DNA of 64,000 nt from an uncultured Alphaproteobacteria bacterium (GTDB lineage Bacteria > Pseudomonadota > Alphaproteobacteria > Rs-D84): positions 1 to 64,000 of the forward strand of contig CALXLG010000005.1 in NCBI GenBank assembly GCA_944389135.1, given 5' to 3'. The position numbers were made by a program, and so were the translations under genes. Under the pieces are notes generated by a model. That model had not been told where the DNA came from. It was given only the letters and a program-made list of their open reading frames with translations, and did not search any database. Each line of letters opens with the position of its first letter. Within the stretch, counting starts at the first letter, position 1. This document shows positions 9,726-50,367 of the stretch, piece after piece.

Positions 9726-9802
9726 CGGGGTGTAGCTCAGCCTGGTAGAGTACTTGCATGGGGTGCAAGGGGTCGCAGGTTCGATTCCTGTCACCCCGAC
9801 CA
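9726..9802 (+). tRNA. tRNA-Pro(GGG)
   Basis: The 77-nt gene folds fully. The acceptor stem is CGGGGTG/CACCCCG, with A discriminator and encoded CCA. The D-arm is GCTC...GAGT, and the anticodon stem CTTGC/GCAAG has loop ATGGGGT (anticodon GGG, reading CCC). The T-arm contains GGTTCGATTCC. The 3'-terminal 17 bases are repeated exactly 191 bp downstream. Confidence 0.97.
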
Positions 9803-9841
9803 AAAATAAAGAAACGCCCGCAGTGGCGTTTGTTTATTTTT
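9803..9841 (+). terminator. Terminator directly after tRNA-Pro
   Basis: AAATAAAGAAACGCC pairs with GGCGTTTGTTTATTT with one mismatch around a CGCAGT loop and is followed by a T-run. It would end the tRNA transcript before the rest of the element. Confidence 0.8.
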
Positions 9842-9976
9842 GTATGGGTATTACGGAAATCAACATCGCATACGCAGTATGCCCAGGTTCGACAATGAGT
9901 AGATTTGACAAGCGTTGCGCAGTCAAATCGTTAGGAATGCCCCACAGCCGGCACCATTTTGTGCCGTGCGAGGGAA

Positions 9977-9993
9977 TCCTGTCACCCCGACCA
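9977..9993 (+). repeat. Direct repeat of tRNA-Pro 3' end (att-like)
   Basis: TCCTGTCACCCCGACCA is identical to 9786-9802, the T-loop edge through CCA of tRNA-Pro. Identity stops at both ends, as expected for an attachment-site core. Confidence 0.85.
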
Positions 9994-49910: not shown

Positions 49911-49929
49911 TGGTGCGGGCGAAGGGAAT
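49911..49929 (-). repeat. Copy of tRNA-Gly 3' end (att-like, outer)
   Basis: TGGTGCGGGCGAAGGGAAT equals 50294-50312, the T-loop to CCA end of tRNA-Gly. Identity ends outside the tRNA sequence. Confidence 0.85.
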
Positions 49930-50070
49930 GTATAATTCCCTGCCGAAATCAATCCAATCGTATGATATACTCTTGGTGATTTCGGCGGGTCCCTTTCACT
50001 GCGCGCAAATGCGCTACGTTCCGAACCCTCTGTGTCGGGTTCTATTCCGTCGCCGACAAAGCCAAAAAAC

Positions 50071-50093
50071 AAAAGCCAACACAAGGTTGGCTT
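50071..50093 (-). terminator. Terminator hairpin inside outer element copy
   Basis: Minus-strand AAAGCCAACCTTGTGTTGGCTTTTG stem followed by a T-run; the same hairpin occurs in the inner copy at 50263-50285, right after tRNA-Gly. Confidence 0.8.
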
Positions 50094-50101
50094 TATTTTT
50101 T

Positions 50102-50120
50102 TGGTGCGGGCGAAGGGAAT
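50102..50120 (-). repeat. Copy of tRNA-Gly 3' end (att-like, middle)
   Basis: A 19-base exact copy of 50294-50312 between the two tandem elements. Confidence 0.85.
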
Positions 50121-50293
50121 GTATAATTCCCTGCCGAAATCAATCCAATCGTATGATATACTCTTGGTGATTTCGGCGGGTCCCTTTCACTGCGCGCAAA
50201 TGCGCTACGTTCCGAACCCTCTGTGTCGGGTTCTATTCCGTCGCCGACAAAGCCAAAAAAACAAAAGCCAACACAAGGTTGGCTTTATTTTTT
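50102..50293 (-). mobile_element. tRNA-3'-end element, inner copy (192 bp)
   Basis: Tandem partner of 49911-50101, directly adjoining the CCA of tRNA-Gly(CCC). Its own copy of the tRNA 3' end is at 50102-50120, so the order is tRNA, element, 3'-end copy, element, 3'-end copy. Near identity of the two units points to recent duplication, repeated insertion or ongoing gene conversion. Confidence 0.7.
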
Positions 50294-50367
50294 TGGTGCG
50301 GGCGAAGGGAATCGAACCCTCGTCTTCAGCTTGGGAAGCTGACGTGCTACCATTATACCACGCCCGC
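50294..50367 (-). tRNA. tRNA-Gly(CCC)
   Basis: 74 nt with encoded CCA. The acceptor stem is GCGGGCG/CGCCCGC, the anticodon stem TCAGC/GCTGA with loop TTCCCAA gives anticodon CCC (codon GGG), and the T-arm has GGTTCGATTCC. TATAAA lies 14 bp upstream on the minus strand as a possible -10. The 3'-end 19 bases are the repeated att-like core. Confidence 0.97.

Follow-up and report, generated by a model that had tools for sequence, protein, structure and literature searches.

tRNA-linked repeats in gut Alphaproteobacteria: a probable trans-mobilised unit behind tRNA-Pro(GGG)

The 191-bp insert behind the tRNA-Pro(GGG) gene of an uncultured alphaproteobacterium is interpreted here as a tRNA-linked repeat (TLR) and as a putative non-autonomous mobile unit, which would recombine via the tRNA 3' end and its own copy of this end by an activity supplied in trans; we assign this reading a probability of roughly 60%. 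A TLR is a small non-coding DNA unit found immediately downstream of a tRNA gene, the 3' end of which it repeats at its own end. The insert was recognized in a window of 64,000 nucleotides (the whole stretch of DNA that was analysed) from contig 5 of a 987-kb genome that is 98.5% complete. The original prediction, a small element flanked by a duplicated tRNA end, is partly supported, and the geometry that it described is already known as the TLR class, which it did not name (PMC8144298). What is new here is the evidence of TLR mobility: the same architecture with unrelated cores, clean empty sites and interspecies transfer in gut Alphaproteobacteria recast the TLRs as mobile units, and both their movement and the role of a tRNA-complementary arm become open to direct test, with E. 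coli K-12 itself. In the openly searchable literature we found neither a description of alphaproteobacterial TLRs nor one of TLR mobility.

The unit behind tRNA-Pro(GGG)

The terminal 17 nt of the host gene, TCCTGTCACCCCGACCA, are repeated exactly at a spacing of 191 nt (D and D', Table 1), as had been claimed, and no further copy with up to three mismatches exists in the 64 kb (0.02 expected by chance). Chance falls far short of explaining the match, since the best own-end matches downstream of the unit-less tRNAs of the genome reach only 8-12 of 17 positions, barring cross-matches with neighbouring tRNAs. At this locus the identity ends at CCA, in agreement with the original prediction, while in about a quarter of the related loci, and in the relative G056, it continues through a second copy of the terminator. 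At least 17 identical bases past CCA follow D' in 28 of 111 loci; the terminator is recopied there, therefore the repeating unit consists of arm I and core followed by D and T. The interior was rightly described as a terminator and hairpins with no gene: the terminator stands directly past CCA, several hairpins lie 3' of it, the 191 nt fold with a z of -3.2, no convincing gene was found inside the element, and an Rfam scan of it returned no convincing family besides tRNA.

Table 1. Parts of the tRNA-Pro(GGG) element and the second tRNA locus of the window.
Feature	Position	Strand	Basis
tRNA-Pro(GGG), host gene	9726-9802	+	ARAGORN; Rfam tRNA, 60.4 bits
D, left direct repeat, tRNA-Pro 3' end (strict family-wide core: last 14-15 nt)	9786-9802	+	
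T, rho-independent terminator hairpin abutting CCA	9803-9842	+	
Arm I, imperfect reverse complement of the tRNA-Pro 3' end (TATGGGTATTACGGAAATC...)	9843-9867	+	Permutation test at family level
P2 hairpin GCATAC-gca-GTATGC, then CCAGGTTCG	9868-9891	+	
Type I core: ACAATGAGTA, P3 hairpin (9902-9929), P4/P5 hairpin (about 9941-9974)	9892-9974	+	Helices covary in 45 relatives
D', right direct repeat, exact copy of the host tRNA 3' end	9977-9993	+	
tRNA-Gly(CCC), second window tRNA with the same kind of elements	50294-50367	-	
First tandem unit after tRNA-Gly(CCC), 192 bp, type II core, ends in the tRNA 3' end (17/17)	50102-50293	-	
Second tandem unit after tRNA-Gly(CCC), 191 bp, nearly identical to the first, same terminal 17 nt	49911-50101	-	

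The two tandem units behind the second tRNA of the window share the type II core GTGAAAGGGACCCGCC...GGGAATTATACA.

Anatomy of the units

Throughout the family the parts are ordered as D (tRNA end), T (terminator), arm I, hairpin P2 ending in GGTTCGA, core and D'. In 79 of 113 first units all 17 nt of D' agree with the D of the host. The copy is near-exact for the terminal 14-15 nt of the tRNA and drops off abruptly at -14/-15, upstream of which the unit carries its own GGGAATC. Arm I scores 16.0 on average against the host tRNA, compared with 13.9 ± 0.43 for permuted hosts (none of 5000 permutations scored as high), and the same holds for arm I of the RtT units of other proteobacteria (18.1 versus 14.9 permuted, 0/5000). 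The complementarity is imperfect, the host tRNA being top-ranked in only 7-9 of 84 elements, and arm I of single elements often scores equally well against other tRNAs. We propose that arm I tracks the host tRNA because its pairing with D', probably in single-stranded DNA or in RNA, would produce a double-stranded likeness of the target.

Complementarity between an arm and the tRNA 3' end, together with a D' that stops exactly at CCA, would also be expected of a reverse-transcription product, in which arm I is a primer-binding-like site and D' was copied from the tRNA or its precursor. This origin is highly improbable, in view of the imperfect complementarity of the arm and the finding that four element-carrying genomes (G000, which is the genome of the window, G095, G079 and G068) have no reverse transcriptase.

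Helix P3 and the short helix that closes P4 covary strongly in 45 type I units. Conserved helices, as well as the sense orientation of nearly all units behind their tRNA, are consistent with a functional small RNA gene that is inherited with the tRNA, transcribed when the tRNA terminator is read through, subject to CCA-end processing and active in regulation (e.g., of CsrA/Hfq, as proposed for E. coli RrB); in E. coli, RtT and RrB are transcribed and processed, RrB between the terminators T1 and T2 (PMC8144298). Against such a gene stand the wobble counts, which in the terminators (36 G.T to 2 A.C) show the pattern expected of RNA hairpins, unlike the near parity in the core hairpins (23 G.T to 14 A.C) and in the arm I:D' pairs (103 to 91) of the same elements. 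This difference suggests that arms and core may be maintained at the DNA level, although it is a hint only, because the units share descent and the arm alignments are noisy. The core alignment also lacks a conserved GGA motif, the starvation phenotype of RtT has been withdrawn (PMC8144298), and the patchy presence of the units, their replacement and their cross-species near-identity at diverged loci (see below) argue against an inherited RNA gene as well; we hold this explanation to be unlikely. A putative cellular role as RNA in addition to mobility is possible. The alternative posed originally, a tiny element or a structured RNA, need not be a choice: the unit appears non-autonomous and its paired hairpins are conserved.

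Distribution in the genome, the genus and beyond

When the tRNA neighbourhoods of the genome were scanned, copies of the own 3' end were found downstream of 9 of its 41 tRNAs. The interior of the tRNA-Pro(GGG) element recurs three times, behind tRNA-Ser(TGA) and tRNA-Arg(ACG), with exact host 3' ends, and behind tRNA-Val(TAC), with a diverged end. The own-end scan adds Gly(CCC) with its two tandem units, His with four copies, Asp, Arg(TCT) and Leu(CAA), the units of which have different core types (non-type-I cores being assigned by eye) on the identical plan; a degenerate remnant remains near Pro(TGG). Two core types alternate in the tRNA-His array (L045, G000:C3:54200-56450), in units of 208 bp and 165 bp, thus a single array can mix types. 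The Rfam family STnc430 scored 41 bits on a His unit, below the cut-off of 47, and this was taken as terminator-plus-stem similarity.

Tandem arrays and exact 3' copies, with a repeat that often takes in the terminator, could in principle arise by plain tandem duplication of the tRNA gene, the copies having decayed to a 3' remnant. We find this barely credible: the interior is not a decayed tRNA, its reverse-complement arm runs unbroken across T-stem and acceptor strand, and the core is common to unrelated tRNA species.

Homologues are present in 77 of 96 genomes of the genus (one genome per species, mostly metagenome assemblies), with up to 12 matches each and a tandem spacing of 171-181 bp, and more than 100 comparable inserts lie behind many tRNA genes across the genus; since related loci were retrieved by homology, these counts are not an unbiased census. 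The search suggested by the original prediction, for tRNA-end copies in the same and in related genomes, has thus yielded many tRNAs with the pattern and a shared interior. A broader pattern scan gave 51 matches at most 700 bp downstream of a same-strand tRNA, mostly 63-93 bp away, and the named relatives that matched the core pattern are uncultured Alphaproteobacteria from gut and rumen, including 'Candidatus Enterousia'. The type I model R1 is all but restricted to the genus: among 289 genomes from the class it matched 4, of which two belong to the genus; the two matches outside it have the identical plan and lie behind Lys and Gly tRNAs. Pattern matches in Bacteroides, archaea and phages have neither core nor tRNA and are attributed to chance, as are those on viral contigs without tRNA or core, and a viral origin was dismissed. 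Secondary insertion sites outside tRNA genes were likewise rejected, as the apparent orphans (L105, L118, L129) sit at tRNA-linked islands or behind cargo.

Several loci have features of their own. On JAFSDI010000016.1 (L118, L105), tRNA-Ser(GGA) is followed by TLR units, a seryl-tRNA-synthetase-like ORF, a serine-recombinase-like ORF (ORF names given by eye) and a further TLR about 17 kb downstream; the region is an island linked to the tRNA, with TLRs at its borders. The inverted repeat AGTTCGAAAGT...ACTTTCGAAC was seen repeatedly on the downstream side of tRNA-Gln units (L050, L095, L117, L129). Another AT-rich core type with long hairpins (ATACGA...AAAAATCGA...TGTGTATTGAGG; L024, L176, L184) ends in the host tRNA tail. 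At L015 (1400-1600) and L109 a TLR core is fused directly to the T-arm of a displaced tRNA-Arg(TCT) 3' half (CAGGTTCGA joined to CAACAAGTAG), as if by recombination at the shared GGTTCGA.

Relation to the TLRs of Escherichia coli

The TLRs of E. coli have been on record since 1978 (Egan and Landy 1978; Rudd 1999; PMC8144298). Stenum et al. count 22 units at ten loci of E. coli K-12, with a 3' end identical over 18-19 bp to the upstream tRNA or 5S gene (PMC8144298). No function is known for them apart from the CsrA and Hfq binding of the 5S-linked type (RrA/B/F), and a phenotype ascribed to RtT was withdrawn (PMC8144298). By this defining geometry the window element fits the TLR class, as far as sequence can tell: it lies immediately downstream of a tRNA gene, its end equals the host tRNA end (17/17), and units of its kind occupy several loci per genome with one to five units each. 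Shared with E. coli are the position behind a tRNA or 5S gene, the same orientation, one to five tandem units, host-matched 3' ends, a terminator preceding the unit (as in rrB) and an arm that complements the tRNA end, as seen in the tyrT units. The present units differ in coming from gut and rumen Alphaproteobacteria, in their core sequences, in the shorter strict copy (14-15 nt versus 18-19), in the terminator found in nearly every unit and in the use of more than 12 tRNA species in one genus.

The Rfam family RtT (RF00391) is the Tyr type of TLR. It was found in 33 of 249 genomes of a phylum-wide sample, behind Tyr, Lys, Ser and Gln tRNAs with host-matched ends, and in none of the class of the window; its covariance model gave no match in the window element (E up to 5) and none in the whole genome. 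RtT has the same part order (GGATGAGAA..C..GGTTCGAC, hairpins, AATCC plus tRNA end), and the type I core differs from it in its helices. As the RtT model gives no match, the window element is not placed in RF00391, and on sequence grounds the alphaproteobacterial units are a separate branch of TLRs with new core types.

Gain, loss and transfer of the units

The acpS - tRNA-Pro - element - corA locus (gene names by eye) is orthologous in the genome of the window and in G056. The elements are 99.0% identical (189/191), compared with 82.0% for acpS, 79.7% for corA and 53.7% for the downstream intergenic region, and each D' fits the allele of its own host tRNA. Further pairs behave alike, with elements 91-97% identical between flanks of 71-82%: L008/L009 (97% versus 82%), the Arg(TCT) group (95-97% versus 73-79% in the upstream flank) and L135/L175 (92% versus 71% in the upstream flank). 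The near-identity of elements is not mere constraint, because element identity at the Pro(GGG) locus varies between 57% and 99% across relatives while the flanks hold at 71-83%. The reverse case occurs at other loci, where flanks of 92% or 89% identity surround elements of 65% or 58%.

Orthologous tRNAs also differ in occupancy, and the comparison of loci with and without the insert that had been asked for gave positive results, including elements that move between species. In the cleanest case, tRNA-Gly(TCC) is empty in G079 and filled in G025; the downstream flank, 97.6% identical, begins at the first base past CCA in the former and past the second CCA in the latter. Lys, Asp, Met and Pro(CGG) orthologues vary likewise between conserved flanks. 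Because the genus comparisons use one genome per species, a within-species empty site comes from E. coli only, where loci were compared through annotated records: the tyrT-tyrV spacer of XH988 reads CCACCACCA-TCTCAAGTATTACC with no unit, and K-12 has this sequence plus a 175-bp unit that ends in a second AATCCTTCCCCCACCACCA. This is an exact empty site within one species, and the annotated RtT count at the locus ranges from none to four across genomes. Judged from sequence, these comparisons show that units are acquired and lost, supplant one another, accumulate in tandem and pass from one species to another, and that their junctions fall precisely at the 3' end of the tRNA.

No recent jump between isotypes was demonstrated, because cores of different isotypes are at best 95% identical and the only exact core match is between two serine isoacceptors that share the same tRNA end; recent retargeting across tRNA species was accordingly set aside. 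In two E. coli genomes with RtT-less tyrT/tyrV loci (NZ_CP097370.1, NZ_CP013835.1; L292, L293), fatty-acid and sterol desaturase genes directly follow tRNA-Tyr.

Candidate mechanisms and enzymes

We propose that recombination of the tRNA 3' end with the copy carried by the unit, D', lets a unit enter or leave, and that the tRNA stays intact after insertion because the unit restores its 3' end. The recombination activity would come from trans, either from the host XerC/XerD or from the integrase of a visiting phage or island. G079 and G095, with 6 and 8 element matches, have tyrosine recombinases of the XerC- and XerD-like kinds only, as judged by their number and size. The original comparison with tyrosine-recombinase elements holds in part: direct repeats of the tRNA 3' end, a restored tRNA, empty sites in relatives and tandem accretion are shared with tRNA-targeting elements and satellites of this kind, whereas the present units are below 250 bp, use many tRNA targets per genome and carry no integrase, none having been found linked to any element.

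In the single informative allele pair D and D' both match the host, which conservative site-specific recombination fits only with a same-allele donor or with later gene conversion; copy-type insertion or gene conversion is thus possible. Loss through plain short-repeat recombination, combined with spread through homologous recombination, could do without a dedicated enzyme. A REP/RAYT-like mechanism, prompted by a GTAG before hairpin P3, was dropped, as no Y1 (TnpA/RAYT) transposase (PF01797) was present in any of 10 genomes, which also separates the units from REP/BIME.

The units recall integron cassettes (attC) in having inverted arms around a structured loop and arrays at a fixed target. 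In single-stranded DNA the stretch from arm I through the core to D' might accordingly adopt an attC-like hairpin, the tRNA 3' end taking the role of attI and an integrase joining the two. The arm I:D' pairing that tracks the target, the near-symmetric wobble counts, which fit pairing at the DNA level, the tandem arrays and a single segment resembling a unit, whose inverted arms enclose a methyltransferase-like gene, agree with this. We nevertheless consider it doubtful, as no integron integrase was identified (PF00589 matches being classed by size and number only), the GTT-type crossover triplet of cassettes is not seen at the junction, the target is a tRNA gene, G079 and G095 hold no tyrosine recombinase beyond XerC/XerD, and the arm I:D' pairings lack the consistent one-arm bulge of attC sites. 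A broader conjecture, which we rate only slightly higher and still as improbable, is that the TLRs of Proteobacteria at large are the smallest tRNA-targeted mobile units known, cassettes recognised by structure in which the inverted arm and the copied tRNA end rebuild the target in single-stranded DNA; tRNA 3' ends would then be platforms as attI is for integrons, and the recombinase would read structure instead of one tRNA sequence.

Apart from the preferred reading of a unit mobilised in trans, two loci bear on cargo and integrases. At L216 (G004:C11) and L025 a phage-type integrase gene (382 aa) adjoins the 3' half of tRNA-Lys, to which TLR units are still attached; another element has entered the same tRNA-Lys and displaced the TLR array, so the integrase belongs to a separate insertion and an autonomous, integrase-bearing version of the unit was discarded. 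At L129 (5100-6190) inverted arms of 23 bp, TGGTTGTGGGGTGCTGGCAAAAC and GTTTTGCCAGCACCCCACAACCA, enclose an ORF of 265 aa that resembles a class I methyltransferase, and the second arm ends like the tRNA-Gln tail; this is possibly a gene-bearing unit.
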